A stretch of 64,000 nucleotides of DNA, from NCBI GenBank assembly GCA_037893225.1, contig JAZGUH010000412.1, forward strand, positions 124,001 through 188,000, read 5' to 3'. A program made the translations under genes and the position numbers. Below, piece after piece: positions 29,661 through 63,533 of this stretch. Positions within the stretch are counted from its first letter, which is position 1. The number at the start of each line of letters is the position of its first letter. The DNA comes from Hippasteria phrygiana (taxonomy: Eukaryota > Echinodermata > Asteroidea > Valvatida > Goniasteridae). The notes beneath the pieces were generated by a model, which was not told the DNA's origin, ran no database searches, and saw only the letters and a list, made by a program, of their open reading frames with translations.

Positions 29661-29713
29661 TAGGTGTTGGGCATCAGCCCAACACCTATTGTTATTCTAT
29701 TGATTATTCTTTT
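29661..29713 (+). mobile_element. Element A: 5' end (hairpin and leader), interrupted
   Basis: The hairpin at 29661-29688 and leader ATTGTTATTCTATTGATTATTC stop at CTTTT (29713), where element B starts. The continuation TCTTCTTATT is found at both 37111 and 59054; the uninterrupted form is visible in element C (33680-33700). Confidence 0.8.
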
Positions 29714-32700
29714 TAGGTGTTTGGGCTCAAGCCCAAACACCTATTGTTTTTGTTAGGATTTTTATTCTTACTTTTTCTTTTTCCAGAGGATTTTTCTCCA
29801 GAGTTGTTTGACTACATGCAAACTCATATCAAGTTCATATTAAACACATGAATACACAACCAACGTAAGATGTTTTTTTTTGTAATGACGTCATGATGAC
29901 GTCATCATGTATCAGATTACAAGCAATTAAACATTTCTATTTTTAATCATTGAAAATCGATATAAAATCAACCGTGAAAGACCTGAACTTGATTTTTACG
30001 GCAATCGATAGGATAATATTAGATCTTCAATTTTGATCGTGCGTGCAAAATCACGTGACCCTTCCTTCCGGTCGAAACCGGAAGTGCCTTATAATTTGAA
30101 AGTGGAAAAAGATTTGAACTTGCTTTCAGCGATGTTAGTCTTTGGCCTGGCTGAACTTTTCAAAAATGTGTGCGGTGACGTCATAAAATATTCGAGCGCC
30201 CTCTAGCGGCAGGTTGAAAATTGTTCAAAATGAACTTTTAGTCGATGTGTGTTGCGAAGTTTGCTGAAATCACTTGATAATTTATATATATGATGACCTT
30301 CATGCAGGGAACACGTGTGCGAGGGCTCAGATTGATGACGTCATCAGACCGGAAGTGACAATGAAAAGACGTTGAAACCTTCAAAAATTGCTGAAAAATC
30401 AACGGCGATAAATGTAATCCAGATTTTTGCTTTAATTGGATTAGTTGATATAGCTCTCAAGCTTTCTGATAATGACGTCGCGATGACGTCATCAAGTATC
30501 AGATTACAAGCAATCAAAGATTTCTTGATTTAATCTTTGAAAATCAATATAAAATCAACCGAGAGAGATCTGATTTTGCTTATTACTGGAATTGATAGAA
30601 TAATCCAAGGTCTTCATTTGTTATATTACGTTCAAAACCACATGACCCTTCCTTCCGGTCCAAACCGGAAGTGCTTCATAATTTGAAATTGAAAAAAGAT
30701 GTGAACTTGCTTTCAATGATGTTAGTCTCTGGCTAGGTTGTACTTCACAACAAAATTACCGGTGACCTGATAAAATGTGAGTGCGCCCTCTAGCGGCAGG
30801 TTTAAAAATGTTTAAAATGAATAATCCGTTGATGTGTAAGGCGAAGTTTACTGAAATCACTTGATAATGTATATATATGATGACCTTCATGCAGGGAACA
30901 CGTGTGCGAGGGCTCAGATTGATGACGTCATCAGACCGGAAGTGACAATGAAAAGACGTTGAAACCTTCAAAAATTGCTGAAAAATCAACGGCGAAAAAT
31001 ATAATCCAGATTTTTGTTTTAATTGGATCAGTTGATATAGCTCTCAAGCTTTCTGATAATAACGTCGCGATGACGTCATCAAGTATCAGATTACAAGCAA
31101 TCAAAGATTTCTTGATTTAATCTTTGAAAATCAATATAAAATCGACCGAGAGAGATCTGATTTTGCTTATTACTGGAATTGATAGAATAATCCAAGGTCT
31201 TCATTTGTTATATTACGTTCAAAACCACATGACCCTTCCTTCCGGTCCAAACCGGAAGTGCCTCATAATTTGAAATTGAAAAAAGATGTGAACTTGCTTT
31301 CAACGATGTTAGTCTCTGGCTAGGTTGTACTTCACAAACAAATTACCGGTGACGTGATAAAATGTGAGTGCGCCCTCTAGCGGCAGGTTTAAAAATGTTT
31401 AAAATGAATAATCCGTTGATGTGTGTGGCGAAGTTTACTGAAATCACTTGAATTGTTTTTCTTCTTGTCTTTCTTTATTCCCCAGAACTGTATAACAACA
31501 TGCAACTTCAAATCAAGTTTAAACTTGGTACATTTTATACACACTCACTCTATTGAAGATGTGCAAAAATCGAATGACGTCATGATGTGCCAATTTACAA
31601 GCAGAAGTATGATATTTCAAGTTTTCATATGTGAACATCAGATAGATCTAATGTACATCGAATCTTTTGGTGTTTTTTCTTTGACCTCTACGTCTGGTAA
31701 CATCGGAAGCTCAAAATCAACGGATGGTACAGGGACACTGTTAGCAATTCACGGATCAGTAACATGAATACAAACATATGCGGACGTACATGTTAGAAAA
31801 AAAGTAGATCTCAAATTTCCTTGTATTTCTTGGCAATCAGCGAACTTAAACATTCCCCACGGCACCATTGGAATGTCACTTCGACCACCCACCAACTCCC
31901 TCATAAAACGTGCTTTAGCGTCGTGCCTCGTGGAAAAAATACTCAAGAGAGGGCGCTAGACCAACCTAACGGTCCCGAACTGTACGCGTGCAGTTGGGGA
32001 CCGTTATGTCGGTCCACTACCTACATCTGGGTATTTTTTTTCTTCTGAGGCTGTTGAGGGTAGCAATGGAATGGGACGTGATGCTGCAAGAAAATTCATT
32101 TGCTGATTGGGTAGCAAGCCGTACATTCCTCATAATTGTTGATCTCCATCCCTGGCTCCGCAAGTGTCGATAATAGCCTATGAATTATTTTTCTTCTTGT
32201 CTTTCCTTATTCCCCAGAACTGTATAACAACATGTAACTTTACATCAAGTTTAAACTTGGTACATTTCATACACACCCTATTGAAGATGTGCAAAAATGT
32301 AATGACGTCATGATATGTCAATTTACAAGCAGAAGTATGATATTTCAGGTTTTCATATGTGAACATCAGATAGATCTAATGTACATCGACATTTTTTGTG
32401 TTTTTTATTTGACCTCTACGTCTGGAATCATCGGAAGCTCAAAGTCAACGGATGGTACAGGGACAGCAATTCACGGATCAGTAACATGAATACAAACATA
32501 TGCGGACGTACATGGCAGAAAAAAAGTAGATCTCAAACTTCCTTGTATTTATTGATAATCAGCGAAATTAAACATTCCCTATGGGTCAAAAAAAGTAGAA
32601 AAGTCGAAACAATTATTTACAAAAACGTAAAATCTGTTTTTTTCTGCTATTCCGCCTAGCAATGTCACTTTGACCACCCGCCAACCCCTCATAAAACGTG

Positions 32701-33630
32701 CGTAAGCGTCGTGCAGTTCGGGACCGTTGGGTCGGTCTAGCGCCCTCCCTTTCGTAATTTGTCCATGAAGCTGTTGTCACGTTATGTTATAAGAAAATTA
32801 ATTTGCTGATTAGTTAGAAAGCCGTACATTTACCATACCGTTGATCCCCGTCATCCGGGGCTCCACAAGTGTCAATAAAACCCTCATCATTATGTTATGT
32901 GTTATTATTCTATGAATTATACCTGTACACTCAAAAAGACACTTTGTCATCATTTTTTATACCTTAGGGAGACAAATGAGATACTTGTACATTTATATAC
33001 ATACACACTCTGTTGAAGATGTTCACAAATGCAATGACGTCATGATGACGTCAGCAGGTGTCAAATTGCAAGCAAAAAATCACAAAATCAAGCACATTTT
33101 TGAAACGTCATATGTCATGAGGTACAAGACAAGGTTTTCATATTTGGCGATTAGATGTTAGTTTCCGGCAAGACTGTGCTTTAAAAAAAATGTTACCAGT
33201 GACGTTATAAAATACTCGAGCGCCTTCTAACATGGCCTCAATCCGTCATCCGACTCACAACAAAATATTCAAAAGCAATCCGTTTTATTGGGTATAGTTC
33301 AGTGCACATTCATTCTGTGCTTCTTTCGATTGTTGAAATCAAAATAAACCACAAAAAATTATGCATCTTTTCTCTAATGTGTTTCAGTGTCGAACAGTCT
33401 GCCAGACGTCACTGTTGGTCACCCCACGACAGCAGGAAACAAGGCCTTCTGCTCAAGAGTACATAATTTGCTTTAAAAATATTACATTGATGTTTTCATG
33501 TTTTATTTTTTTCCTAATCACTTCTTTCAACAAATGTACCTCTAAATACTGTACTTTCCTTATCCGTAAATTAATAAAGCAGACAAAGCCAAACACCTTG
33601 AGTTTGTCACAACAAACTCTAAGCTCTAGT
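29714..33630 (+). mobile_element. Element B (Helentron-like), 3.9 kb
   Basis: The 5' hairpin TAGGTGTTTGGGC...CCTA spans 29714-29743. Satellite units have GCGCCCTCTAG marks at about 30199, 30782 and 31369. Two related ~740-bp blocks follow (from 31446 and 32184), both beginning TTTTTCTTCTTGTCTTTC. The 3' end has GAGTTTGT-CACA-ACAAACTC, a 6-nt spacer, and CTAG at 33626-33629. Internal GTCCCGAACTG / CAGTTGGGGAC inverted words lie near 31970-32005. No coding gene. Confidence 0.75.
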
Positions 33631-36600
33631 TAGGTGTTGGGCATCAGCCCAACACCTATTGTTATTCTATTGATTATTCTTTTTCTTCTTATTCTTTTTT
33701 TTCTTTTTCTATAACTTTCTTCTCCGGAGTTGTTTGACTACATGCAAACTCATATCAACTTCAAACTTAGTACATGTGTGCATGTCCTATTGAAGATGTC
33801 AAAAAATGTAATGACGTCATGATGACGTCATCATGTATCAGATTACAGGCAATTACACATTTCTATTTTTAATCATTGAAAATCGATATAAAATCAACCG
33901 TGAGAGACCCGAACTTGATTTTTGTGGGAATTGATAGTACAATTTAGGATCTTCATTTTTGTTCGTGTGCGTCAAATCACGTGACCCTTCCTTCCGGTCG
34001 AAACCGGTCGAAACCGGAAGTGCTTTATAATTTGAAAGTGGAAACAGATTTGAACTTGCTTTCAACGATGTTAGTCTTTGGCCAGGCTGAACTTTTCAAA
34101 AATGTGTGCGGTGACGTCATGAAATATTCCAGCGCCCTCTAGCGGCAGGTTGAAAAATGTTCAAAATGAACTTTCAGTCGATGTGTGTGGCGAAGTTTGC
34201 GGTAATCACTTTATAATTGATATATATGATGACCTTTATGCAGGCAACACGTGTGCGAGGGCTCAGATTGATGACGTCATCAGACCGGAAGTTGCAATGA
34301 AAAGACCTTTAAACCTTCAAAAATCGCTGAAAAATCAACCGCGACAGATATAATTCAGATTTTTGCTTCAGATGGCACAGTTGACATAGCTCTCGAGCTT
34401 TGTGATAATGACGTCACGATGACGTCATCAAGTATCATATTACAAGCAATCAAAGATTTCTTGATTTAATGTTTGAAAATCAATATAAAATCAACCGAGA
34501 GAGATCTGATTTTGCTTTTTACGGGAATTGATGGAAAAATGCAGGGTCTTCATTTTTGATATTACGTGCAAAATCACATGACCCTTCCTTCCGGTCGAAA
34601 CCGGAAGTGCCTTATAATTTAAAAGTGGAAACAGATTTGAACTTGCTTTTAACGATGTTAGTCTTTGGCCAGGCTGAACTTTTCAAAAATGTGTGCGGTG
34701 ACGTCATGAAATATTCGAGCGCCCTCTAGCGGCAGGTTGAAAAATGTTCAAAATGAACTTTCAGTCGATGTGTATGGCGAAGTTTGCGGTAATCACTTTA
34801 TACTTTATACATATGATGACCTTCATGCAGGCAACAGGTGTGCGAGGGCTCAGATTGATGACGTCATCAGACCGGAAGTTGCAATGAAAAGACCTTTAAA
34901 CCTTAACAAATCGCTGAAAAATCAACCGCGACAGATATAATTCAGATTTTTGCTTCAGATGGCACAGTTGACATAGCTCTCGAGCTTTGTGATAATGACG
35001 TCACGATGACGTCATCAAGTATCAGATTACAAGCAATCAAAGATTTCTAGATTTAATGTTTGAAAATCAATATAAAATCAACCGAGAGAAATCTGATTTT
35101 GCTTTTTACGGCAATTGATGGAATAATCAACGGTCTTCATTTTTGATATTACGTGCAAAATCACATGACCCTTCCTTCCGGTCCAAACCGGAAGTGCCTT
35201 ATAATTTGAAAGTGGAAAAAGATGTGAACTTGCTTTCAACGATGTTAGTCTCTGGCTAGGTTGTACTTCACAAAAAAAATACCAGTACCGTCATAAATTG
35301 TTAGAGCGCCCTCTAGCGGCAGCCTGAAAAATGTTTAAAATGAATAATCCGTTGATGTGTGTTGCGAAGTTTGCTGAAATCACTTTATAATTGATACATA
35401 TGATGACCTTCATGCAGGCAACATGTGTGCAAGGGCTCAGATTGATGACGTCATCAGACCGGAAGTTGTAATAAAAAGGCCTTTAAACATAAAAAAAAAC
35501 GCTGAAAAATCAACCGTAAAAGATATATGCCAGATTTTTGCTGCAGATAGCACAGTTCACATAGCTCTCGAGCTTTCTGGTAATGACGTCACGATGACGT
35601 CATTAAGTGTCAGATTACAAGCAATCAAAGATTTCTAGATTTAATCTTTGAAAATCAATATAAAATCAACAGAGAGGTATCTGAATTTGCTTTTTACGGG
35701 AATTGATAGAATAATCAAGGGTCTTCATTTTTTATATTACGTGGAAAATCACATGACCCTTCCTTCCTTGAAAATAAAGTAAAATTGTAATGTCCTTCTT
35801 CACGAGAAAGATGATTTTTTTCCCTACTTACCAATTATCAAAGAACATTTCTTTTTTGAACGAACAACACTTCAATCTGAAACATCTTCAGTTCTCCACA
35901 GTCAAGAAGCTTTTTGGAGGGCGACAGAATAAAATTGTCCGACTTTTCTATGCGTCCGGTGACCACTACAGAACTTGGAAGGAAAAGCCAGTTAACATTT
36001 TATAAGCGTTACCAGAGTGCGAAAATCAGATTCATGACGTCATCACACCGGCAGTAACAAAACACTTTTTGTACTTTGAACATTGCTGAAAAATTAACCG
36101 TGAGCGCTATAATCCTGATTTTTCCTTCAAATGGCACAGTGAACGTAAAAGGCTTCTTATAATGACGTACCCATGACGTCATCAGGTATCAAATTACAAA
36201 ATCACGGTACCCTTCCTTCCGTTTGAAATCAAATTTGCTCGAAACTTCTTATCTCATGAACTACAGCACAAAATGCTTTCCCATTTGAAGATCACATTGA
36301 TCTTACCTTGGTCTACACTTTTGGTTGGAAGTGTTTTTACTTCTTCAAGATCTTTCGGAAGTTCAAAGTTAAATTCTTATAGCATTAGATAATGGTTACA
36401 GAAACGACAACCTTGTTGCCACGTGCCTTCTTCGAGAGGTCTTAACTTTCTAATAATAGGTGTGGTTCACTGATCTCCATTATACATTATACTACAGATC
36501 AGTGGTGTGCTGGTGTGTACAGATGTAATGACATCATGACGTCATCAAGGTCAAATTACATACAAAAACCACTCGACAATTACAAATTGTTGAAATATCA

Positions 36601-37110
36601 TATTCCATTAACTGCAACTCCCAAGGTTTTCAAAATTAGTGATGAAATACATCTACATGTACGTCTTCTCTCTTACATAATCTAACTGACTTAAAAAAAA
36701 CACAAATACAATGCGTTTGTTTTAACAAACGTAATGTTTTTTTGTTATTTGACCTTTACTTCCAGAATTACCGTAAGTTAAAAGTAAAATTCTTATTACA
36801 TTACATATGTAGCAGATATGAGAGCCTGGTTAGCACCTGCGTTGTTAGAGAGGTCATATTATCTTTCCATTATAGATTATGATAGATTTGGTAATGTGCA
36901 CAGGTGTAATGATGTCAGAAATGACGTCATCAAGGTCAAATGACAAAACTTCAAAAACGAACATTCCTTTGGAAACAACATGTTTCATGAACTGCAGCAC
37001 ATAAGATTTTCACGATTGGTGATGGTATACAGGTGCATCTTTTCTCTTTTAATCGATACAAAAAACGCCCAACACCGTGCGTTTGTTATAACAAACGACA
37101 TATATCTAGT
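33631..37110 (+). mobile_element. Element C (Helentron-like), 3.5 kb
   Basis: Starts directly after B's CTAGT (head-to-tail). The hairpin is 33631-33658. Three satellite units have marks at about 34130, 34718 and 35304, and a unique 3' part runs from about 35790. The 3' hairpin CGTTTGTTATAACAAACG (37080-37097) is followed by 8 nt and CTAG (37106-37109). This is the cleanest complete member and a good reference for the family. 62-71-codon ORFs recur in the copies but have no recognisable domain. Confidence 0.82.
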
Positions 37111-37238
37111 TCTTCTTATTATTCTTTTTCTTCCTTTTGCTAGAACTTTCTTCTCCGGAGTTGTTTGACTACATGCAAACTCATATCAAGTTCAAACTTA
37201 GTACATGTGTGCATGTCCTATTGAAGATGACGAAAAAT

Positions 37239-37827
37239 GTAATGACGTCATGATGACGTCATCATGTATCAGATTACAAGCAATTAAACATTTCTATTTT
37301 TAATCATTGAAAATCGATATAAAATCAACCGTGAGAGACCCGAACTTGATTTTTGTGGGAATTGATAGTATAATTTAGGATCTTCATTTTTGATAATTTG
37401 CGTCAAATCACGTGACCCTTCCTTCCGGTCGAAACCGGAAGTGCCTTATAATTTGAAAGTGGAAAAAGATTTGAACTTGCTTTCAGCGATGTTAGTCCTT
37501 GGCCAGGCTGAACTTTTCAAAATGTGAGCCGTGACGTCATAAAACATTCGAGCGCCCTCTAGCGGCAGGTTGAAAAATGTTCAAAATGAACTTTCAGTCG
37601 ATGTGTGTGGCGAAGTTTGCGGTAATCACTTTATAATTGATATATACGATGACCTTCATGCAGGCAACACGTGTGCGAGGGCTCAGATTGATGACGTCAT
37701 CAGACCGGAAGTTGCAATGAAAAGACCTTTAAACCTTAAAAAATCGCTGAAAAATCAACCGTGACAGATATAATTCAGATTTTTGCTTCAGATGGCACAG
37801 TTGACATAGCTCTCGAGCTTTGTGATA
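37239..37827 (+). repeat. Example ~588-bp satellite unit of the Helentron-like family
   Basis: The unit runs from one TGACGTCANGATGACGTCATCA pair to the next (period 583-590 bp throughout 30-63 kb). Internal order: TGACGTCA pair 11 bp apart; ATATAAAATCAACCG; TCACGTGACC or TCACATGACC; the palindrome CTTCCGGTC...ACCGGAAG; GTGACGTCATAAAA; GAGCGCCCTCTAGCGGCAGG; TGATGACGTCATCAGACCGGAAGT; then ATAGCTCTCGAGCTTT. Parts within the unit resemble each other (TGACGTCATCA followed by ...AAATCAACCGNGANAGAT twice, about 145 bp apart), hinting at an older, shorter monomer. Confidence 0.88.
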
Positions 37828-37850
37828 ATGACGTCACGATGACGTCATCA
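37693..37850 (+). promoter_or_regulatory. Representative CRE-type TGACGTCA cluster with ETS-like site
   Basis: Within 160 bp are TGACGTCATCAGACCGGAAGT (CRE-like palindrome next to a CCGGAAGT ETS core) and the pair TGACGTCACGATGACGTCATCA. The same cluster recurs in nearly every satellite unit. Known animal CREB/ATF proteins bind TGACGTCA. Binding here is inferred from sequence only. Confidence 0.5.
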
Positions 37851-40529
37851 AGTATCATATTACAAGCAATCAAAGATTTCTTGATTTAATGTTTGAAAAT
37901 CAATATAAAATCAACCGAGAGAGATCTGATTTTGCTTTTTACGGGAATTGATGGAAAAATGCAGGGTCTTCATTTTTGATATTACGTGCAAAATCACATG
38001 ACCCTTCCTTCCGGTCGAAACCGGAAGTGCCTTATAATTTTAAAGTGGAAACAGATTTGAACTTGCTTTCAACGATGTTAGTCTTTGGCCAGGCTGAACT
38101 TTTCAAAAATGTGTGCGGTGACGTCATGAAATATTCGAGCGCCCTCTAGCGGCAGATTGAAAAATTTTCAAAATGAACTTTCAGTCGATGTGTATGGCGA
38201 AGTTTGCGGTAATCACTTTATACTTTATACATATGATGACCTTCATGCAGGCAACAGGTGTGCGAGGGCTCAGATTGATGACGTCATCAGACCGGAAGTT
38301 GCAATGAAAAGACCTTTAAACCTTAACAAATCGCTGAAAAATCAACCGCGACAGATATAATTCAGATTTTTGCTTCAGATGGCACAGTTGACATAGCTCT
38401 CGAGCTTTGTGATAATGACGTCACGATGACGTCATCAAGTATCAGATTACAAGCAATCAAAGATTTCTAGATTTAATGTTTGAAAATCAATATAAAATCA
38501 ACCGAGAGAAATCTGATTTTGCTTTTTACGGCAATTGATGGAATAATCAACGGTCTTCATTTTTGATATTACGTGCAAAATCACATGACCCTTCCTTCCG
38601 GTCCAAACCGGAAGTGCCTTATAATTTGAAAGTGGAAAAAGATGTGAACTTGCTTTCAACGATGTTAGTCTCTGGCTAGGTTGTACTTCACAAAAAAAAT
38701 ACCAGTACCGTCATAAATTGTTAGAGCGCCCTCTAGCGGCAGCCTGAAAAATGTTTAAAATGAATAATCCGTTGATGTGTGTTGCGAAGTTTGCTGAAAT
38801 CACTTTATAATTGATATATATGATGACCTTCATGCAGGCAACATGTGTGCAAGGGCTCAGATTGATGACGTCATCAGACCGGAAGTTGTAATAAAAAGGC
38901 CTTTAAACATTAAAAAAAACGCTGAAAATCAACCGTAAAAGATATATGCCAGATTTTTGCTGCAGATAGCACAGTTCACATAGCTCTCGAGCTTTCTGGT
39001 AATGACGTGACGATGACGTCATTAAGTGTCAGATTACAAGCAATCAAAGATTTCTAGATTTAATCTTTGAAAATCAATATAAAATCAACAGAGAGGTATC
39101 TGAATTTGCTTTTTACGGGAATTGATAGAATAATCAAGGGTCTTCATTTTTTATATTACGTGGAAAATCACATGACCCTTCCTTCCTTGAAAATAAAGTA
39201 AAATTGTAATGTCCTTCTTCACGAGAAAGATGATTTTTTTCCCTACTTACCAATTATCAAAGAACATTTCTTTTTTGAACGAACAACACTTCAATCTGAA
39301 ACATCTTCAGTTCTCCACAGTCAAGAAGCTTTTTGGAGGGCGACAGAATAAAATTGTCCGACTTTTCTATGCGTCCGGTGACCACTACAGAACTTGGAAG
39401 GAAAAGCCAGTTAACATTTTATAAGCGTTACCAGAGTGCGAAAATCAGATTCATGACGTCATCACACCGGCAGTAACAAAACACTTTTTGTACTTTGAAC
39501 ATTGCTGAAAAATTAACCGTGAGCGCTATAATCCTGATTTTTCCTTCAAATGGCACAGTGAACGTAAAAGGCTTCTTATAATGACGTACCCATGACGTCA
39601 TCAGGTATCAAATTACAAAATCACGGTACCCTTCCTTCCGTTTGAAATCAAATTTGCTCGAAACTTCTTATCTCATGAACTACAGCACAAAATGCTTTCC
39701 CATTTGAAGATCACATTGATCTTACCTTGGTCTACACTTTTGGTTGGAAGTGTTTTTACTTCTTCAAGATCTTTCGGAAGTTCAAAGTTAAATTCTTATA
39801 GCATTAGATAATGGTTACAGAAACGACAACCTTGTTGCCACGTGCCTTCTTCGAGAGGTCTTAACTTTCTAATAATAGGTGTGGTTCACTGATCTCCATT
39901 ATACATTATACTACAGATCAGTGGTGTGCTGGTGTGTACAGATGTAATGACATCATGACGTCATCAAGGTCAAATTACATACAAAAACCACTCGACAATT
40001 ACAAATTGTTGAAATATCATATTCCATTAACTGCAACTCCCAAGGTTTTCAAAATTAGTGATGAAATACATCTACATGTACGTCTTCTCTCTTACATAAT
40101 CTAACTGACTTAAAAAAAACACAAATACAATGCGTTTGTTTTAACAAACGTAATGTTTTTTTGTTATTTGACCTTTACTTCCAGAATTACCGTAAGTTAA
40201 AAGTAAAATTCTTATTACATTACATATGTAGCAGATATGAGAGCCTGGTTAGCACCTGCGTTGTTAGAGAGGTCATATTATCTTTCCATTATAGATTATG
40301 ATAGATTTGGTAATGTGCACAGGTGTAATGATGTCAGAAATGACGTCATCAAGGTCAAATGACAAAACTTCAAAAACGAACATTCCTTTGGAAACAACAT
40401 GTTTCATGAACTGCAGCACATAAGATTTTCACGATTGGTGATGGTATACAGGTGCATCTTTTCTCTTTTAATCGATACAAAAAACGCCCAACACCGTGCG
40501 TTTGTTATAACAAACGACATATATCTAGT

Positions 40530-43500: not shown

Positions 43501-44185
43501 GCAAGGGCTCATATTGATGATGTCATCAGACCGGAAATTGCGCTGAAAAGACCTTTAAACCTTAACAAAAATTATGAAAAATCAACCGTGAGAGATATAC
43601 TCCAGATTTTCACTTCAAATGGCAGGGTAAACATAGGTCTCCAGCTTTATTGTAATGACGTCATTATGACATCGTCATATATCAAATAACAAGCAATTCA
43701 AAATGAATATTTTTAATCTTTGAAAATCAATATAAAATCAACTGTGAAAGACCTAACATTTCTGTTTGCGGCAATGGATAAAGTAATAACAGGTCTTCAT
43801 TTTTTATATTGAGTGCAAAATCACGTGACCCTTCCTTCCTGTCAAAACCGGAAGTGCCTTATAATTCAAAATTGGTAAAAGATATGAACTTCCTTTCCAC
43901 GATGTTAGTCTTTGGCAGGTATGTGCTTTTCAAAAAGCGACCAGTGACGTCGCAAACTGCAGATTAACTGCCTTCGTAATGTGCACAGATGTAATAGTGT
44001 CATGGTGACGTCATCAAGGTCAAATTACAAAAACCTAAAAAATCTACATTTTTGAGAACGTCATGCTTCATGAACTGCAGCACACAAACTTTTCACAATT
44101 AGTGATTACATACATGTGGATCTATTCTCTTATGTAATCAAACTGAACAAGTCCAACACCGTGTGTTTGTTCCACAAACTCTAGT
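40530..44185 (+). mobile_element. Element D (Helentron-like), 3.7 kb
   Basis: Starts right after A' (CTAGT|TAGGTG). The hairpin 40530-40557 has one mismatch arm (AAAACC). Five satellite units have marks at about 41018, 41604, 42192, 42775 and 43364. The 3' end is GTGTTTGTTCCACAAACTCTAG (44163-44184). An AT-rich palindrome (ATAATTGATAT...ATATCAATTAT) lies at about 43443-43471. Confidence 0.82.
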
Positions 44186-44234
44186 TAGGTGTTGGGCTAT
44201 ACAGCCCAACACCTATTGTTATTGAAAGAATTAT

Positions 44235-50200: not shown

Positions 50201-53000
50201 AAGACCCTGGATTATTCCATCAATTCCCGTAAAAAGCAAAATCAGATCTCTCTCGGTTGATTTTATATTGATTTTCAAAGATTAAATCCAGAAATATTTC
50301 ATTGCTTGTAATCTGATACTTGATGACGTCATCGTGAGGTCATTACCAGAAAGCTCGAGAGCTATGTCAACTGTGCCATCTGAAGCAAAAATCTGGATTA
50401 TATCTGTCGCCGTTGATTTTTCAGCAATTTTTGAAGGTTTTAAAGTTTTTTCATTGTCACTTCCGGTCTGATGATGTCATAAATCTAAGCCCTAGCACAC
50501 GTGTTGCCTGCGTAAAGTTCATCATATATATCAATTATAAAGTGATTTCACCAAACTTCGCCCACACATCAGCCGATTATTCATTTTAAACATGTTTCAA
50601 CCTGCCGCTAGAGGGCGCTCTAACATTTTATGACGTCACCGGTATTTTGTTTGTGAAGTACAACCTAGCCAGAGACTAACATCGTTAAAAGCAAGTTCAC
50701 ATCTTTTTTCACTTTCAAATTATAAGGCACTTCCGGTTTGGACCGGAAGGAAGGGTCATGTGATTTTGTATGTAATATAGAAATTGAAGACCCTGGATTA
50801 TTCTGTCAATTCCCGTAAAAAGCAAAATCAGATCTCTCTCGGTTGATTTTATATTGATTTTCAAAGATTAAATCTAGAAATCTTTGATTGCTTGTAATCT
50901 GATACTTGATGACGTCATCGTGACGTCATTACCAGAAAGCTCGAGAGCTATGTTAACTTTGCTATCTGAAGCAAAAATCTGGATTATATCTGTCGCCGTT
51001 GATTTTTTAGCAATTTTTGAAGGTTTTAAAGTTTTTTCATTGTCACTTCCGGTCTGATGACGTCATCAATCTAAGCCCTAGCACACGTGTTGCCTGCGTA
51101 AAGGTCATCATATATATCAATTATAAAGTGATTTCACCAAACTTCGCCACACACATTAGCCGATTATTCATTTTAAACATGTTTTAACCTGCCGCTAGAG
51201 GGCGCTCTAACATTTTATGACGTCACCGGTATTTTTGTTGTGAAGTACAACCTAGCAAGAGACTAACATCGTTGAAAGCAAGTTCAAATCTGTTTCCACT
51301 TTTAAATTATAAGGCACTTCCGGTTTGGACCGGAAGGAAGGGTCATGTGATTTTGCACGTAATATCAAAAATGAAGACCCTGGATTATTCCACCAATTCC
51401 CGTAAAAAGCAAAATCAGATCTCTCTCGGTTGATTTTATATTGATTTTCAAACATTAAATCAAGAAATCTTTGATTGCTTATAATCTGATACTTGATGAC
51501 GTCATCGTGACGTCATTATCACAAAGCTCGAGAGCTATGTCAACTGTGCCATCTGAAGCAAAAATCTGAATTATATCTGTCGCGGTTGATTTTTCAGCGA
51601 TTTTTTAAGGTTTAAAGGTCTTTTCATTGCAACTTTCGGTCTGATGACGTCATCAATCTGAGCCCTTGCACACGTGTTGCCTGCATGAAGGTCATCATAT
51701 ATATCAATTATAAAGTGATTACCGCAAACTTTGCCACACACATCGACTGAAAGTTAATTTTAAACATTTTTCAACCTGCCGCTAGAGGGCGCTCGAAGAT
51801 TTTATGACGTCACCGCACACATTTTTGAAAAGTTCAGCCTGGCCAAAGACTAACATCGTTGAAAACAAGTTCAAATCTGTTTCCACTTTCAAATTATAAG
51901 GCACTTCCGGTTTGGACCGGAAGGAAGGGTCATGTGATTTTGCACGTAATATCAAAAATGAAGACCCTGGACTATTCCATCAATTCCCGTAAAAAGCAAA
52001 ATCAGATCTCTCTCGGTTGATTTTATATTGATTTTCAAACATTAAATCAAGAAATCTTTGATTGCTTGTAATATGATACTTGATGACGTCATCGTGACGT
52101 CATTATCACAAAGCTCGAGAGCTATGTCAACTGTGCCATCTGAAGCAAAAATCTGAAATATATCTGTCGCGGTTGATTTTTCAGCGATTTTTGAAGGTTT
52201 CAAGGTCTTTTCATTGCAACTTCCGGTCTCATGACGTCATCAATCTGAGCCCTCGCACACGTGTTGCCTGCATGAAGGTCATCATATATATCAATTATAA
52301 AGTGATTACCGCAAACTTCGCCACACACATCGACTAAAAGTTCATTTTGAACATTTTTCAACCTGCCGCTAGAGGGCGCTCGAGTATTTTATGACGTCAC
52401 AGCTAACATTTTTGAAAAGTTCAGCCTGGCCAAGGACTAACATCGCTGAAAGCAAGTTCAAATCTTTTTCCACTTTCAAATTATAAGGCACTTCCGGTTT
52501 CGACCGGAAGGAAGGGTCACGTGATTTTGCACGCACGATCAAAATTGAAGATCTAATATTATCCTATCAATTGCCGTAAAAATCAAGTTCCGGTCTTTCA
52601 CGGTTGATTTTATATCGATTTTCAAACATTAAAAATAGAAATGTTTAATTGCTTGTAATCTGATACCTGATGACGTCATCATGACGTCATCACATTTTCC
52701 GGAATCTTCAATGTGATGTACATATATGTACCAAATATGAACTTGATATGAGTTTGCATGTAGCCAAACAACTCCGGAGAAGAAAGTTATGTGAAGAAGA
52801 AAAAAAAGAATAATCAATAGAATAACAATAGGTTTTGGGCTGAAGCCCAACACCTAATAAACATTTTTGAGAACGTCATGCTTCATGAACCGCAGCACAC
52901 AAAGTTTTCACAATTAGTGATTACATAAATGTGGATCTATTCTCTTATGTAATCAAACTGAACAAGTCCAACACCGTGTGTTTGTACCACAAACTCTAGT
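44235..53000 (+). mobile_element. Element F (Helentron-like) nested in E, itself split by G
   Basis: The hairpin is 44235-44262. Units have marks at about 44720, 45308, 45892, 46483 and 47078. It is split at 48176/48177, with its 3' tail at 52856-53000 ending GTTTGTACCACAAACTCTAGT. Its own length is about 4.1 kb. Insertion at ATTAT|TCTT gives T on both sides, as in other Helentron-like insertions. Confidence 0.8.
48177..52855 (-). mobile_element. Element G (Helentron-like), inverted, inside F
   Basis: Complete in reverse orientation. It has 3' ACTAGAGTTTGTGGTACAAAC at 48177 and the 5' hairpin TAGGTTTTGGGC...CACCTA inverse at 52828-52855. Unit marks are at about 49437, 50020, 50605, 51190, 51778 and 52367. 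With F it forms an inverted pair with arms of more than 4 kb. The outer flanks are A-rich on the plus strand, that is T|T on the element strand. Confidence 0.82.
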
Positions 53001-56000
53001 TCTTATTTTTATTCTTTTTTTTCTTTTTGCTAGTACTTTCTTCTCCAGAGTTGTTTGGCTACATGCAAACTCATATCAAGTTCATATTTGGTACATATAT
53101 GTACATCACATTGAAGATTCCGGAAAATGTGATGACGTCATGATGACGTCATCAGGTATCAAATTACAAGCAATTAACCATTTCTATTTTTAATGTTTGA
53201 AAATCGATATAAAATCAACCGTGAAAGACCGGAACTTGATTTTTACGGCAATTGATAGGATAATATTAGATCTTCAATTTTGATCCGGCGTGCAAAATCA
53301 CGTGACCCTTCCTTCCGGTCGAAACCGGAAGTGCCTTATAATTTGAAAGTGGAAAAAGATTTGAACTTGCTTTCAGCGATGTTAGTCCTTGGCCAGGCTG
53401 AACTTTTCAAAATGTGAGCCGTGACGTCATAAAACATTCGAGCGCCCTCTAGCGGCAGGTTGAAAAATGTTCAAAATGAACTTTCAGTCGATGTGTGTGG
53501 CGAAGTTTGCGGTAATCACTTTATAATTGATATATATGATGACCTTCATGCAGCCAACACGTGTGCGAGGGCTCAGATTGATGACGTCATCAGACCGGAA
53601 GTTGCAATGAAAAGACCTTTAAACCTTAAAAAGTCGCTGAAAAATCAACCGTGACAGATATATTTCAGATTTTTGCTTCAGATGGCACAGTTGACATAGT
53701 TCTCGAGCTTTATGATAATGACGTCACGATGACGTCATCAAGTATCATATTACAAGCAATCAAAGATTTCTTGATTTGATGTTTGAAAATCAATATAAAA
53801 TCAACCGAGAGAGCTCTGATTTTGCTTTTTACGGGAATTGATGGAATAATGCAGGGTCTTCATTTTTGATATTACGTGCAAAATCACATGACCCTTCCTT
53901 CCGGTCCAAACCGGAAGTGCCTTATAATTTAAAAGTGGAAACAGATTTGAACTTGCTTTCAACGATGTTAGTCTTTGGCCAGGCTGAACTTTTCAAAAAT
54001 GTGTGCGGTGACGTCATAAAATATTCGAGCGCCCTCTAGCGGCAGGTTGAAAAATGTTTAAAATTGACTTTCAGTCGATGTGTCTGCCAAAGTTTGCGGT
54101 AATCACTTTATAATTGATATATATGATGACCTTCATGCAGGCAACACGTGTGGAAGGGCTCAGATTGATGACGTCATCAGACCGGAAGTTGCAATGAAAA
54201 GACCTTTAAACCTTAAAAAATCGCTGAAAAATCAACCGTGACAGATATATTTCAGATTTTTGCTTCAGATGGCACAGTTGACATAGCTCTCGAGCTTTGT
54301 GATAATGACGTCACGATGACGTCATCAAGTATCAGATTACAAGCAATCAAAGATTTCTTGATTTAATGTTTGAAAATCAATATAAAATCAACCGAGAGAG
54401 ATCTGATTTTGCTTTTTACGGGAATTGATGAAATAATCCAGGGTCTTCATTTTTGATATTACGTGCAAAATCACATGACCCTTCCTTCCGGTCCAAACCG
54501 GAAGTGCCTTATAATGTAAAAGTGGAAATAGATTTGAACTTGCTTTCAACGATGTTAGTCTCTGGCTAGGTTATACTTCACAAAAAAAATACCGGTGACG
54601 TCATAAAACATTCGAGCGCCCTCTAGCGGCAGGTTGAAAAATGTTCAAAATGAACTTTCAGTCGATGTGTGTGGCGAAGTTTGCGGTAATCACTTTATAA
54701 TTGATATATATGATGACCTTCATGCAGGCAAGACGTGTGCGAGGGCTCAGATTGATGACGTCATCAGACCGGAAGTTGCAATGAAAAGACCTTTAAACCT
54801 TAAAAAATCGCTGAAAAATCAACCGCGACAGATATAATTCAGATTTTTGCTTCAGATAGCACAGTTGACATAGCTCTCGCGCGTTCTGATAATGACGTCA
54901 CGATGACGTCATCAAGTATCAAAGATTTCTAGATTTAATCTTTGAAAATCAATATCAAATCAACCGAGAGAGATCTGATTTTCATTTTACGGGAAGTGAT
55001 AAGATAATCCAGGGTCTTCATTTTTTATATTACGTGCAAAATCAAACCGGAAGTTCCTTTTTATTTGAAAGTGAAAGAACTTTCAGTCGATGTGTTTGGC
55101 GAAGTTTGCGGTAATCACTTTATAATTGATATATATGATGACCTTCGTGCGGGCAACACGTGTGCAAGGGCTCAGATTGATGACGTCATCAGACCGGAAG
55201 TGACAATGAAAAAAAAAGAATTTCCTTAAACAATTGCTGAAAAATCTAGCGTGAGAGATATAATCTTGATTTTTTTCAAATGGCACAGTAAACATAGGTC
55301 TCCAGCTTTCTTGTAATGACGTCATGATGACGTCATTGGGTATCAGATTACAAGCAATAAAACATTAATTTTTTTAATCTTTAAAACTCGGTATAAAATC
55401 AACCGTTAGAGACCTTATCTTACTTTTTACGGGAATTGATAGAGTAATACTAGGTCTTCATTTTTTTATATTGAGTGCAAAATCACGTGACCCTTCCTTC
55501 CGGTCCAAACAGGAAGTGCCTTATAATTTGAAATTGGTAAAAGATGTGAACTTGCGTATAGTCTCCGGCAAGACTGCTTTTCAAAAAATGTTACCAGTGA
55601 CGTCATAAAATACTCCAGCGCCCTCTAACATGAGCTCAATCCGTCATCCGACTCAAAACAAAATAATCAAAAACCAATCCGTTTTATTGGGTATAGTTCA
55701 GTGCACATTCATTCTGTGCTTCTTTCGATTGTTCAAATCAAAATAAACCACATATGCATCTTTTCTCTAATGTATTTCAGTGTCAAACATTCTACCAGAC
55801 GTCACCCCACGACAGCAGGAAGCAAGGCCTTCTGCTCAAGAGTACATAATTTGCTTTAGAAATATTACATTGGTGTTTTCATGTTTTATGTTTTTCCTAA
55901 TCATTTCTTTCAACAAATGTACCTCTTAATACTGTACTTTCCTTATCCGTAAATTAAAAAAACAGACAAAGCCCAACACCGTGTGTTTGTATTCAAACTC

Positions 56001-56004
56001 TAGT

Positions 56005-59000
56005 TAGGTGTTGGGCTTCAGCCCAAAACCTATTGTTATTGTTAGAATTATTCTTATTATTCTTCCTCTTTTTCTTCTTCACATAACTTTCTTCTCCGGA
56101 GTTGTTTGGCTACATGCAAACTCATATCAAGTTCATATTTGGTACATATATGTACATCACATTGAAGATTCCGGAAAATGTGATGACGTCATGATGACGT
56201 CATCAGGTATCAGATTACAAGCAATTAACCATTTCTATTTTTAATCTTTGAAAATCGATATAAAATCAACCGTGAAAGACCGGAACTTGATTTTTACGGC
56301 AATTGATAGGATAATATTAGATCTTCAATTTTGATCGTGCGTGCAAAATCACGTGACCCTTCCTTCCGGTCGAAACCGGAAGTGCCTTATAATTTGAAAG
56401 TGGAAAAAGATTTGAACTTGCTTTCAGCGATGTTAGTCCTTGGCCAGACTGAACTTTTCAAAATGTGAGCCGTGACGTCATAAAACATTCGAGCGCCCTC
56501 TAGCGGCAGGTTGAAAAATGTTCAAAATGAACTTTCAGTCGATGTGTGTGGCGAAGTTTGCGGTAATCACTTTATAATTGATATATATGATGACCTTCAT
56601 GCAGCCAACACGTGTGCGAGGGCTCAGATTGATGACGTCATCAGACCGGAAGTTGCAATGAAAAGACCTTTAAACCTTAAAAAGTCGCTGAAAAATCAAC
56701 CGTGACAGATATATTTCAGATTTTTGCTTCAGATAGCACAGTTGACATAGTTCTCGAGCTTTGTGATAATGACGTCACGATGACGTCATCAAGTATCATA
56801 TTACAAGCAATCAAAGATTTCTTGATTTGATGTTTGAAAATCAATATAAAATCAACCGAGAGAGCTCTGATTTTGCTTTTTACGGGAATTGATGGAATAA
56901 TGCAGGGTCTTCATTTTTGATATTACGTGCAAAATCACATGACCCTTCCTTCCGGTCCAAACCGGAAGTGCCTTATAATTTAAAAGTGGAAACAGATTTG
57001 AACTTGCTTTCAACGATGTTAGTCTTTGGCCAGGCTGAACTTTTCAAAAATGTGTGCGGTGACGTCATAAAATATTCGAGCGCCCTCTAGCGGCAGGTTG
57101 AAAAATGTTTAAAATTGACTTTCAGTCGATGTGTCTGCCAAAGTTTGCGGTAATCACTTTATAATTGATATATATGATGACCTTCATGCAGGCAACACGT
57201 GTGCAAGGGCTCAGATTGATGACGTCATCAGACCGGAAGTTGCAATGAAAAGACCTTTAAACCTTAAAAAATCGCTGAAAAATCAACCGTGACAGATATA
57301 TTTCAGATTTTTGCTTCAGATGGCACAGTTGACATAGCTCTCGAGCTTTGTGATAATGACGTCACGATGACGTCATCAAGTATCAGATTACAAGCAATCA
57401 AAGATTTCTTGATTTAATGTTTGAAAATCAATATAAAATCAACCGAGAGAGATCTGATTTTGCTTTTTACGGGAATTGATGAAATAATCCAGGGTCTTCA
57501 TTTTTGATATTACGTGCAAAATCACATGACCCTTCCTTCCGGTCCAAACCGGAAGTGCCTTATAATGTAAAAGTGGAAATAGATTTGAACTTGCTTTCAA
57601 CGATGTTAGTCTCTGGCTAGGTTATACTTCACAAAAAAAATACCGGTGACGTCATAAAACATTCGAGCGCCCTCTAGCGGCAGGTTGAAAAATGTTCAAA
57701 ATGAACTTTCAGTCGATGTGTGTGGCGAAGTTTGCGGTAATCACTTTATAATTGATATGTATGATGACCTTCATGCAGGCAAGACGTGTGCGAGGGCTCA
57801 GATTGATGACGTCATCAGACCGGAAGTTGCAATGAAAAGACCTTTAAACCTTAAAAAATCGCTGAAAAATCAACCGCGACAGATATAATTCAGATTTTTG
57901 CTTCAGATAGCACAGTTGACATAGCTCTCGCGCGTTCTGATAATGACGTCACGATGACGTCATCAAGTATCAAAGATTTCTAGATTTAATCTTTGAAAAT
58001 CAATATCAAATCAACCGAGAGAGATCTGATTTTCATTTTACGGGAAGTGATAAGATAATCCAGGGTCTTCATTTTTTATATTACGTGCAAAATCAAACCG
58101 GAAGTTCCTTTTTATTTGAAAGTGAAAGAACTTTCAGTCGATGTGTTTGGCGAAGTTTGCTGTAATCACTTTATAATTGATATATATGATGACCTTCGTG
58201 CGGGCAACACGTGTGCAAGGGCTCAGATTGATGACGTCATCAGACCGGAAGTGACAATGAAAAAAAGAATTTCCTTAAACAATTGCTGAAAAATCTAGCG
58301 TGAGAGATATAATCTTGATTTTTTTCAAATGGCACAGTAAACATAGGTCTCCAGCTTTCTTGTAATGACGTCATGATGACGTCATTGGGTATCAGATTAC
58401 AAGCAATAAAACATTAATTTTTTTAATCTTTAAAACTCGGTATAAAATCAACCGTTAGAGACCTTATCTTACTTTTTACGGGAATTGATAGAGTAATACT
58501 AGGTCTTCATTTTTTTATATTGAGTGCAAAATCACGTGACCCTTCCTTCCGGTCCAAACAGGAAGTGCCTTATAATTTGAAATTGGGAAAAGATGTGAAC
58601 TTGCGTATAGTCTCCGGCAAGACTGCTTTTCAAAAAATGTTACCAGTGACGTCATAAAATACTCCAGCGCCCTCTAACATGAGCTCAATCCGTCATCCGA
58701 CTCAAAACAAAATAATCAAAAACCAATCCGTTTTATTGGGTATAGTTCAGTGCACATTCATTCTGTGCTTCTTTCGATTGTTCAAATCAAAATAAACCAC
58801 ATATGCATCTTTTCTCTAATGTATTTCAGTGTCAAACATTCTACCAGACGTCACCCCACGACAGCAGGAAGCAAGGCCTTCTGCTCAAGAGTACATAATT
58901 TGCTTTAGAAATATTACATTGGTGTTTTCATGTTTTATGTTTTTCCTAATCATTTCTTTCAACAAATGTACCTCTTAATACTGTACTTTCCTTATCCGTA

Positions 59001-59053
59001 AATTAAAAAAACAGACAAAGCCCAACACCGTGTGTTTGTATTCAAACTCTAGT
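56005..59053 (+). mobile_element. Element H (Helentron-like), 3.05 kb, near-identical to E
   Basis: Head-to-tail after E. The hairpin is 56005-56032, unit marks are at about 56497, 57084, 57668 and 58668, and CTAG is at 59049-59052. It differs from E by few substitutions and small indels, so the duplication is recent. Confidence 0.83.
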
Positions 59054-62000
59054 TCTTCTTATTATTCTTTTTCTTCCTTTTGCTAGAACTTTCTTCTCCG
59101 GAGTTGTTTGACTACATGCAAACTCATATCGTTAATATCATTAATAGTCTTGTGGATTCTGTCTGGAATATTTAGGCCCCACGGAATATCTAAATTGCCT
59201 AAACGTTAAGACGTTTCAAAATCAATTAAGACATTCTTCGGAAAAAATAACATTGTCAATCAGTAAAGCAATAATCAGAACATATTTACTGTCCACGCAT
59301 GAATATGGCTTCGAAAAAAAGTCGCATTGTGTTGAAAATGTAATCTTGGTTTGCTTTCACTGTGTACTTTCGTGATTTTTCTACGCGTGATGAATAAACT
59401 TCGTTTTATATATACATTTTAAAAAATTAAATGTATGGAACAGAGAAAGGGTCGTAACGTAGATAAGCCTACTCCGATGGCAGAAATCGTGCAGTAAACC
59501 TGACGAAAATACTTTCAAAACGAGGGAATATAAAATGACTTGTTTTGTGAACCACGTTCATTTTACGTCAATAGCTAAAGCCGGAGATCGTATCAGGGCT
59601 TATTTACTATTCAGAGCGACTGCTCAGCACAATTAAAAAGGCAAAACAACCTCTCTGTAGATTCAAAGAGAAGTTTTGTTTAATTCCTAAAAAAGAATCC
59701 GGTCCTTTTGTTCAGTTTTATTGCCTCCCGTGAAGAACGGTAAGGAACCCGTCTGCACGCGTGGGAACGGGGAAAATAATTTTGCGTCCTCCCTAAAACA
59801 TCTTGGACAGTTTTCCGGAACACGTAGGCTTGTCTAATTATATTTAGCCGACGCAAGACACGTGACGAGCCAGAAACCCAAATCCATTCGACTATTATTT
59901 TATCGTCGTAGTTGAATTTCCGCCACAGTATTTTGTGGCGCGCCGCGTACAAATGTCAGATTTTTTCAACTCTCGGTTTCCCTTTTTCAGACTCCTCTCC
60001 CATAGGGTTTGTGCACGTTTTTCTTCCACCAGGGCACTTGGGCACTTTGGTGAATCCGATCGACTTGAGACTTGGCACTTGGCACACAGGGGTCACGTGA
60101 CGTCATCTTAAAGGTGCATATCTTAAAGGTGCATTTTTGAAGGGCCCATATCTAGAGAAATGTACATCCGATTAATTTCAAAGTTGCTTAATTGGTCAAA
60201 CTTAGTACATGTGTGCATGTCCTATTGAAGATGACGAAAAATGTAATGACGTCATGATGACGTCATCATGTATCAGATTACAAGCAATTAAACATTTCTA
60301 TTTTTAATCATTGAAAATCGATATAAAATCAACCGTGAGAGACCCGAACTTGATTTTTGTGGGAATTGATAGTATAATTTAGGATCTTCATTTTTGATAA
60401 TTTGCGTCAAATCACGTGACCCTTCCTTCCGGTCGAAACCGGAAGTGCCTTATAATTTGAAAGTGGAAAAAGATTTGAACTTGCTTTCAGCGATGTTAGT
60501 CCTTGGCCAGGCTGAACTTTTCAAAATGTGAGCCGTGACGTCATAAAACATTCGAGCGCCCTCTAGCGGCAGGTTGAAAAATGTTCAAAATGAACTTTCA
60601 GTCGATGTGTGTGGCGAAGTTTGCGGTAATCACTTTATAATTGATATATACGATGACCTTCATGCAGGCAACACGTGTGCGAGGGCTCAGATTGATGACG
60701 TCATCAGACCGGAAGTTGCAATGAAAAGACCTTTAAACCTTAAAAAATAGATGAAAAATCAACCGTGACAGATATAATTCAGATTTTTGCTTCAGATGGC
60801 ACAGTTGACATAGCTCTCGAGCTTTGTGATAATGACGTCACGATGACGTCATCAAGTATCATATTACAAGCAATCAAAGATTTCTTGATTTAATGTTTGA
60901 AAATCAATATAAAATCAACCGAGAGAGATCTGATTTTGCTTTTTACGGGAATTGATGGAAAAATGCAGGGTCTTCATTTTTGATATTACGTGCAAAATCA
61001 CATGACCCTTCCTTCCGGTCGAAACCGGAAGTGCCTTATAATTTTAAAGTGGAAACAGATTTGAACTTGCTTTCAACGATGTTAGTCTTTGGCCAGGCTG
61101 AACTTTTCAAAAATGTGTGCGGTGACGTCATGAAATATTCGAGCGCCCTCTAGCGGCAGATTGAAAAATTTTCAAAATGAACTTTCAGTCGATGTGTATG
61201 GCGAAGTTTGCGGTAATCACTTTATACTTTATACATATGATGACCTTCATGCAGGCAACAGGTGTGCGAGGGCTCAGATTGATGACGTCATCAGACCGGA
61301 AGTTGCAATGAAAAGACCTTTAAACCTTAACAAATCGCTGAAAAATCAACCGCGACAGATATAATTCAGATTTTTGCTTCAGATGGCACAGTTGACATAG
61401 CTCTCGAGCTTTGTGATAATGACGTCACGATGACGTCATCAAGTATCAGATTACAAGCAATCAAAGATTTCTAGATTTAATGTTTGAAAATCAATATAAA
61501 ATCAACCGAGAGAAATCTGATTTTGCTTTTTACGGCAATTGATGGAATAATCAACGGTCTTCATTTTTGATATTACGTGCAAAATCACATGACCCTTCCT
61601 TCCGGTCCAAACCGGAAGTGCCTTATAATTTGAAAGTGGAAAAAGATGTGAACTTGCTTTCAACGATGTTAGTCTCTGGCTAGGTTGTACTTCACAAAAA
61701 AAATACCAGTACCGTCATAAATTGTTAGAGCGCCCTCTAGCGGCAGCCTGAAAAATGTTTAAAATGAATAATCCGTTGATGTGTGTTGCGAAGTTTGCTG
61801 AAATCACTTTATAATTGATATATATGATGACCTTCATGCAGGCAACATGTGTGCAAGGGCTCAGATTGATGACGTCATCAGACCGGAAGTTGTAATAAAA
61901 AGGCCTTTAAACATTAAAAAAAACGCTGAAAATCAACCGTAAAAGATATATGCCAGATTTTTGCTGCAGATAGAACAGTTCACATAGCTCTCGAGCTTTC

Positions 62001-63533
62001 TGGTAATGACGTGACGATGACGTCATTAAGTGTCAGATTACAAGCAATCAAAGATTTCTAGATTTAATCTTTGAAAATCAATATAAAATCAACAGAGAGG
62101 TATCTGAATTTGCTTTTTACGGGAATTGATAGAATAATCAAGGGTCTTCATTTTTTATATTACGTGGAAAATCACATGACCCTTCCTTCCTTGAAAATAA
62201 AGTAAAATTGTAATGTCCTTCTTCACGAGAAAGATGATTTTTTTCCCTACTTACCAATTATCAAAGAACATTTCTTTTTTGAACGAACAACACTTCAATC
62301 TGAAACATCTTCAGTTCTCCACAGTCAAGAAGCTTTTTGGAGGGCGACAGAATAAAATTGTCCGACTTTTCTATGCGTCCGGTGACCACTACAGAACTTG
62401 GAAGGAAAAGCCAGTTAACATTTTATAAGCGTTACCAGAGTGCGAAAATCAGATTCATGACGTCATCACACCGGCAGTAACAAAACACTTTTTGTACTTT
62501 GAACATTGCTGAAAAATTAACCGTGAGCGCTATAATCCAGATTTTTCCTTCAAATGACACAGTGAACGTAAAAGGCTTCTTATAATGACGTACCCATGAC
62601 GTCATCAGGTATCAAATTACAAAATCACGGTACCCTTCCTTCCGTTTGAAATCAAATTTGCTCGAAACTTCTTATCTCATGAACTACAGCACAAAATGCT
62701 TTCCCATTTGAAGATCACATTGATCTTACCTTGGTCTACACTTTTGGTTGGAAGTGTTTTTACTTCTTCAAGATCTTTCGGAAGTTCAAAGTTAAATTCT
62801 TATAGCATTAGATAATGGTTACAGAAACGACAACCTTGTTGCCACGTGCCTTCTTCGAGAGGTCTTAACTTTCTAATAATAGGTGTGGTTCACTGATCTC
62901 CATTATACATTATACTAGAGATCAGTGGTGTGCTGGTGTGTACAGATGTAATGACATCATGACGTCATCAAGGTCAAATTACATACAAAAACCACTCGAC
63001 AATTACAAATTGTTGAAATATCATATTCCATTAACTGCAACTCCCAAGGTTTTCAAAATTAGTGATGAAATACATCTACATGTACGTCTTCTCTCTTACA
63101 TAATCTAACTGACTTAAAAAACACACAAATACAATGCGTTTGTTTTAACAAACGTAATGTTTTTTTGTTATTTGACCTTTACTTCCAGAATTACCGTAAG
63201 TTAAAAGTAAAATTCTTATTACTTTACATATGTAGCAGATATGAGAGCCTGGTTAGCACCTGCGTTGTTATAGAGGTCATATTATCTTTCCATTATAGAT
63301 TATGATAGATTTGGTAATGTGCACAGGTGTAATGATGTCAGAAATGACGTCATCAAGGTCAAATGACAAAACTTCAAAAACGAACATTCCTTTGGAAACA
63401 ACATGTTTCATGAACTGCAGCACATAAGATTTTCACGATTGGTGATGGTATACAGGTGCATCTTTTCTCTTTTAATCGATACAAAAAACGCCCAACACCG
63501 TGCGTTTGTTATAACAAACGACATATATCTAGT
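59054..63533 (+). mobile_element. Terminal 5'-less element, with a ~1.07-kb internal replacement
   Basis: Starts TCTTCTTATTATTC like 37111. At 59131 it departs from the family after ACTCATATC and rejoins at about 60199 (CAAACTTAGTACATG). Units have marks at about 60553, 61139 and 61730. The 3' hairpin is 63503-63520 and CTAG is 63529-63532, followed by (ATT)n. It is most simply the right end of the outermost element A. Confidence 0.78.
59131..60198. other. ~1.07-kb unrelated segment inside the last Helentron-like copy
   Basis: It replaces five or so bases of the family sequence. It has no recognisable terminal repeats or target duplication. It includes a direct repeat (CTTAAAGGTGCAT at 60109 and 60123) and a TCACGTGACGTCATC word at 60092. 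The 90-codon minus-strand ORF at 59680-59952 has no recognisable domain. Confidence 0.6.

Follow-up and report, generated by a model that had tools for sequence, protein, structure and literature searches.

The window analyzed here is a stretch of 64,000 nucleotides (bases 124001-188000 of contig C412, JAZGUH010000412.1) from the 944-Mb, 1285-contig assembly of Hippasteria phrygiana (GCA_037893225.1). Between its positions 29661 and 63533 lies a block in which non-coding elements of the Helentron type (HINE-like), carrying 587-bp satellite monomers, form a nest. An earlier note, made from the letters of the window, had described the block as a bracket-like series of Helentron/HINE insertions into one (ATT)n tract. 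The G+C fraction of the block is 0.35-0.39 in most 2-kb steps, compared to 0.43-0.44 just before it. On the + strand we found seven left ends, beginning at 29661, 29714, 33631, 40530, 44186, 44235, and 56005, and eight right ends, stopping at 33630, 37110, 40529, 44185, 53000, 56004, 59053, and 63533, in agreement with the eight 3′ ends (CTAG-T) counted in the note. One complete inverted copy is also present. We parsed the block and its flanks as follows.

29630..29660, no strand: left flank, with the (ATT)n target at its end; the ATT register resumes at 63534 once the block is removed
29661..29713, + strand: left 53 bp of X1, the outermost element (hairpin and T-rich leader); its rejoined 28-bp junction occurs uninterrupted elsewhere
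29714..33630, + strand: element A, with left-end variant GGTGTTTGGGC, two monomer anchors, and a right end closing in ..TCTAAGCTCTAGT
33631..37110, + strand: element Y, complete, starting directly after CTAGT; 98.6% identical to X2
37111..40529, + strand: body of X2 minus its first 53 bp, opening with the leader sequence of the X1 body; 99.73% identical to X1 over 3338 bp
40530..44185, + strand: element D, complete, with five monomer anchors; 99.4% identical to the outer body of locus L048
44186..44234, + strand: left 49 bp of element E; joined to 53001, it gives the D leader from CCTATTG on
44235..53000, + strand: element F, inside E and broken by G; 4086 bp without G, with uninterrupted matches on contigs C83 and C117
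48177..52856, − strand: inverted copy (element G) within F, running from its left end at 52856 to its right end at 48177; seven monomer anchors
53001..56004, + strand: body and right end of E; 99.2% identical to H, with a different leader
56005..59053, + strand: element H, complete, with its own left and right ends
59054..63533, + strand: body and right end of X1; 99.73% identical to X2 over 3338 bp; CTAGT, then (ATT)n
59131..60195, no strand: about 1.06 kb of non-family DNA within the body of X1, splitting a stretch that X2 has unbroken near 37188
63534..63545, no strand: right flank, (ATT)n, continuing the ATT repeat

The left ends of the family have the layout TAGGTGTTGGGC(loop)GCCCAACACC (often GCCCAAAACC), followed by a T-rich leader containing ATT, and the right ends of most copies read (G)YCCAACACCGTGYGTTTGT..AAAC..CTAGT. 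A palindromic 5′ inverted repeat is present as a TA|GGTGTTGGGC..GCCCAACACC hairpin located 2 bp from the left end, and a 3′ subterminal repeat (GCCCAACACC or GTCCAACACC; GCCAAACACC in A) ends 24-34 bp before the 3′ terminus of the window copies. When three left hairpins were folded, all were far more stable than shuffled sequences (z = −7.6, −3.9, and −6.7); the 3′ palindrome of the X type was also clear (z = −2.6, with 2 of 200 shuffles folding equally well). Element bodies contain two to seven monomer anchors, usually 587 bp apart, and family members range from about 2.5 to 5 kb. No replicase was found in the block, where the longest stop-to-stop frame is 118 aa. The Helentron/HINE anatomy and the lack of a replicase proposed in the earlier note were therefore supported, and assignment to the HINE family works, short of a linked autonomous partner. 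A canonical Helitron (5′-TC, 3′-CTRR, A|T insertion) was ruled out by the TAGG (or AGG) start and the T|T insertion, although a 3′ CTAG is present.

Removal of the whole block, which joins 29660 to 63534, restores an unbroken (ATT)n, as expected from the claim of one original target. The outermost pair of ends, 29661/63533, is best read as belonging to a single element, X1, that surrounds everything else. At the 28-bp junction in the X1 leader, the sequence that should follow 29713 is found identically at 37111 and at 59054, and X1 rejoined across its load matches the leader of Y as far as CTTCTTATT; X1 and X2 could be interchanged in the parse. Base 53 of the X1 leader holds A, Y, X2, D, E, and H head to tail, while F sits at base 49 of the E leader. 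Without G, F has the same length as the uninterrupted copies at loci L038 (C83) and L046 (C117), from which it differs by 4 and 5 mismatches, respectively. This exact empty site for G strengthens the insertion reading, and F is so nearly identical to these copies, which lie on different contigs, that recent activity is indicated. The bracket-like nesting of the earlier note does parse, with the amendments that X1 encloses all, that X2 (37111-40529) is without a left end, and that 1.06 kb of unrelated DNA is included. This unrelated DNA takes the place of about 4-6 bp of X1.

Both ends recur throughout the genome. Strict patterns gave 327 left-end and 260 right-end matches, compared to zero matches for each of the reversed patterns that served as a control for chance; these counts are lower bounds, since strict patterns overlook variants (GGTGTTTGGGC, other palindromes). 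We listed the first 100 matches of each pattern and studied in detail the window plus 20 loci of 10 kb, each viewed across those 10 kb only, that were drawn from 45 strict left-end matches. The last 15 of the 45 fall outside this set (one, on C197, was fetched separately, and three lie within the window), and the choice of loci by left-end matches biases the sample towards ladders, i.e., runs of left ends. Head-to-tail joints were parsed by hand, and two false right ends admitted by the loose right-end rule (L048 5276 and window 53034) were dropped from the total of 44. The same nested architecture recurs across many contigs, and self-insertion is common in this ladder-biased sample.

Insertion points were examined in a set of 42 nested insertions, which excludes contig C61 and includes near-duplicates from contig C88. 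Thirty-eight of these points end in TTAT|T and 34 in ATTAT|T, at an offset of 35-68 bp from the outer left end (most commonly 47 bp; 14 of 42), bearing out the self-targeting proposed earlier. Thirteen ladders begin in DNA that is not family sequence (L031-L034, L036-L039, L046-L049, and the window), and each of them is preceded by AT. The insertion points fall at the ATT-rich leader, which thus resembles the family's target and, judging from sequence, looks like a landing pad for later copies. No target duplication beyond an ambiguous TT was seen in the loci fetched, at the window joins, or at the G site. Two descriptions are equivalent: either TAGG..CTAGT enters between two Ts and nothing is duplicated, or AGG..CTAG enters and TT is duplicated. 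For 11 of the 44 right ends, the leader rejoined to the sequence after the right end (14 + 14 bp) was found uninterrupted elsewhere (two each at L041 and in the window, and one each at L032, L038, L039, L042, L043, L048, and L050); the two at L041 are weak, as they lie in an ATT repeat. The checks that the earlier note had suggested on the ends and empty sites thus favored it: the fetched loci show consistent ends and no staggered duplication, and empty sites exist at G and at these rejoined junctions.

The recursion is most extensive on contig C88, which holds 70 of the 100 right ends listed, all on the + strand between 1.660 and 2.175 Mb (about 0.52 Mb). There, a left end at 1677226 is followed in successive steps by a second left end (+49), a right end (+3630), and another right end (+3582), the arrangement of a 3631-bp copy inserted at base 49 of a copy of equal length. 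Since 49 + 3582 = 3631 bp, the second unit is without exactly the left 49 bp. The same nest of equal-length copies recurs at 1699082, and three right ends spaced 3582 bp apart occupy 1729563-1736727. At locus L043, which comes from C88, the inner copy shares 98.9% identity with the outer body across 3582 bp. On contig C61, at about 147.5-149.3 kb (L036 2047-3770), 31 left ends occur within about 1.7 kb and form higher-order repeats, seemingly a minisatellite born from transposon left ends. This higher-order repetition indicates that slippage or unequal exchange also lengthens ladders.

Left and right ends are not always balanced. L048, with two of each, is a clean nest. L047 has left ends at 1616 and 1663 and a single right end at 5296, beyond which there is no family sequence, and its single body is colinear over its full length with the solitary element L037 (95% identity), with no sign of a chimera. 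From its sequence, L047 fits a model in which transposition starts at the outer left end and stops at the first right end; a deletion between satellite bodies is the alternative. Other unbalanced loci are L038 (three left, two right), L046 (four left, two right, with a truncated module as the second body), L044 (six left, one right, then an apparent other hairpin element), and L049 (one left, two right, within (ATT)n). L049 and the Y-X2 pair, each with one left end and two right ends, are explained equally by bypass of the inner right end or by slippage between identical left repeats. X2 would accordingly have either lost its left copy by slippage after Y entered or been carried along when the Y right end was bypassed.

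We consider it probable that the nest is explained by a HINE-like family that is mobilized in trans and inserts recursively into its own leader. Non-autonomous elements of this size would be moved by a Helentron replicase, presumably through rolling-circle chemistry. They insert between the Ts of AT|T or ATTAT|T with no duplication of the target. The ATT-rich leader (GATTAT|T, TATTAT|T), some 47 bp from the left end, resembles that target, and new copies would enter either the leader of an older copy or the border (CTAGT|T) that a previous insertion had made. In the window, X1 entered the (ATT)n tract, inner copies would then have gathered at base 53 of the X1 leader, one behind another, and E received F and F the inverted G. 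Elsewhere, the same recursion yields short left ends in series and, after them, a series of 3.6-kb bodies.

The head-to-tail joints might instead record a rolling-circle concatemer, in which a circular intermediate is copied for several rounds and inserted as one array. Direct CTAGT|TAGG joints do exist, four in the window (at 33630, 40529, 44185, and 56004) and 12 among the 44 right ends, and head-to-tail Helitron arrays have been reported in plants and bats (PMC5876387; here and below, statements refer to the accessible portions of the cited papers). A concatemer predicts identical neighbors, whereas the best aligned stretches across the direct joints are 87.0% (A-Y), 93.1% (X2-D), 95.1% (D-E), and 99.2% (E-H) identical; across the borders of resumed bodies, identity is 98.6% for Y-X2 and 92.6% for H-X1. 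As three of the four direct joints connect elements that are 5-13% apart, most joints are better explained by repeated insertion into the T|T of borders already present; the E-H joint alone would suit a concatemer. In addition, the interrupted leaders and resumed bodies (29713/59054 and 44234/53001) require insertion, which a concatemer would not supply, and the second unit is short of exactly the left 49 bp at L043 and, as the arithmetic shows, on C88. We dropped the concatemer reading for the three divergent window joints on the basis of their divergence and the C88 arithmetic, and consider it improbable as an account of the nest; the earlier note had found the head-to-tail joints to fit rolling-circle transposition, but a reading of them as its direct trace was not supported. 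Another possibility is that only a few insertions took place and that homologous recombination (unequal exchange) between satellite bodies, together with slippage of the 47-60-bp left repeats, made the ladders, the X2 defect, and the arrays. The C61 ladder, with its higher-order repeats of the same units, would be explained in this way, as would the 9 of 42 adjacent left-end pairs outside C61 that are identical over the shorter unit and the discordance of bodies and leaders; the first 53 bp are identical in X1 and Y, and loss of one copy would account for X2. However, the remaining 33 of the 42 pairs of outer and inner left ends differ in sequence, many ladder steps rejoin to leaders that are uninterrupted elsewhere, and the colinear L047 body shows no sign of being chimeric. 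We think it unlikely that recombination and slippage generated the nest; one or the other has also acted, as the missing X2 left end and the shuffling of leaders and bodies attest, likely as a contributor rather than the source.

Collapsed or mis-joined repeats in the assembly could be suspected from the presence of repeats more than 99% identical in one contig (X1 and X2, at 99.73%). The contigs listed are 0.26-7.9 Mb long, the junctions are exactly T|T, and the architecture occurs on many contigs, all of which make an artefact very improbable. Cut-and-paste transposition of elements with terminal inverted repeats, to which the GGTGTTGGGC/GCCCAACACC inverted repeats near the ends might point, was dropped as scarcely credible: the asymmetry of these repeats, at 2 bp inside the left end vs. 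about 24-34 bp inside the right end, speaks against it, and there is no target duplication longer than the ambiguous TT.

Our search of the genome for Rep domains yielded 164 candidates, 150 of which were scored; more than 80, counted by eye, lie in frames longer than 3000 aa, which suggests that the genome contains many recently active Helentrons. One Rep match, at locus L051, sits in a 3108-aa frame whose end encodes Pif1-type helicase and endonuclease/exonuclease domains in the same reading frame as the Rep match, which is the Helentron arrangement. We infer that the window family is mobilized in trans by some Helentron. Three Rep matches in long frames also lie within 1.66-2.18 Mb of C88, on the strand opposite to that of the right ends.

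Several observations weigh against the explanation by recursive self-insertion and mobilization in trans. None of the 27 Rep copies that could be assessed (27 of the 150, covered by 100 of the 260 right ends) has a same-strand family right end within 25 kb downstream, and we saw none by eye in the 3.4 kb following the L051 replicase frame; an autonomous relative sharing both ends, as envisaged in the earlier note, was therefore not found among these copies. For 21 of the 44 right ends, no rejoined junction was found and no left end follows directly; some of these precede host DNA, another element, or a truncated module. The empty-site comparisons involve nested copies rather than unoccupied host alleles. 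Within the window, X2 has no left end of its own, and the E and H bodies are 99.2% alike yet have different leaders. Finally, the 3′ palindrome is weak in two other types that were folded, with 37 and 32 of 200 shuffles folding equally well.

Conversion of transposons to satellites is usually inferred from old, decayed loci. Tentatively, and as a possibility that falls short of being probable, we propose that the element, by bearing its own target, may build satellites de novo: recursion would give rise to a left-end minisatellite (the longest having 31 left ends) and a 3.6-kb macrosatellite, together forming half-megabase domains in which the ladder is a record of insertions. With some copies that are young (4 and 5 mismatches per 4086 bp between contigs), a target defined nearly to the base, and nesting that is in large part readable, the birth of a satellite by self-insertion becomes testable in one genome.

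Other sequences were noted alongside these elements. At L044 6428, L046 7973, and L033 about 2035, elements are bordered or interrupted by a TTGGCTGTTTC..AAACAG sequence that resembles a left hairpin belonging to a second family. A module starting with GTATTCTTATTTTTG follows the right ends of different elements (L035 4650 and 6505, L039 9537, and L046 6118), and its copies in L035 (4651-6505) and L046 are 99.6% identical over 1855 bp. Outside the block, the window contains a retroelement with reverse transcriptase and integrase frames at 3998-7760, as well as two related short-repeat arrays in opposite orientation (CTCATTT / AAATGAG) at 2-554 and 1318-2043.

The suggestion that a family of this kind may be undescribed holds only in part. 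HINEs that carry satellites are already known from oyster (PMC7492417), and elements that insert into themselves and have several 5′ ends from Fusarium (PMC5148889); we found no report of recursive nesting this deep, or of paired left-end and body arrays, in the literature searched, from which most subscription papers are absent. HINE and DINE-1 elements are non-coding, some with tandem repeats, and have a 5′ palindromic repeat 2-4 nt from the end, a 3′ palindrome, and a T-rich TT target that is left unmodified; in mites, the HINE 3′ subterminal repeat lies 38-60 bp from the end (PMC4067079). The window family has the 5′ repeat, a subterminal 3′ repeat, the TT target, the non-coding nature, and the tandem repeats in common with them, has a 3′ palindrome that is clear in the X type and weak in the two other types folded, and differs in its strong self-nesting at a narrow leader position, in a 3′ repeat that is nearer the end, and in having a partner that is not linked. 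Cg_HINE of the Pacific oyster likewise has a 5′ subterminal inverted repeat and an inverted repeat, a repeat-like leader, central satellite monomers, a 3′ subterminal inverted repeat with a palindrome, and a TT target without target duplication (PMC7492417). The monomers described here, in contrast, are 587 bp long, and the word "nested" does not occur in the main text of the Cg_HINE paper.

The mechanism that we have invoked comes from Helraiser and Helibat, in which a 3′ hairpin acts as terminator, the 3′ end can be bypassed, and circles form head to tail; those elements differ in having canonical 5′-TC...CTAG-3′ ends and an AT target (PMC4778049, PMC5876387). FoHeli, a Helitron2 group of Fusarium oxysporum, inserts at TNAT|T, inserts into itself, and includes copies with several 5′ ends (the first 31-85 nt being repeated) and one 3′ end, for which a model of initiation at the outer left end and a stop at the first right end was put forward (PMC5148889). 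That proposal is likewise testable here. The TNAT|T-type target, the self-insertion, and the composites with multiple 5′ ends and a single 3′ end, such as L047, are common to both. For FoHeli, one nested example and short 5′ duplications are described, whereas the family described here is a satellite-carrying HINE with a ladder of 31 left ends and with nested copies of equal length in a domain of about 0.52 Mb.

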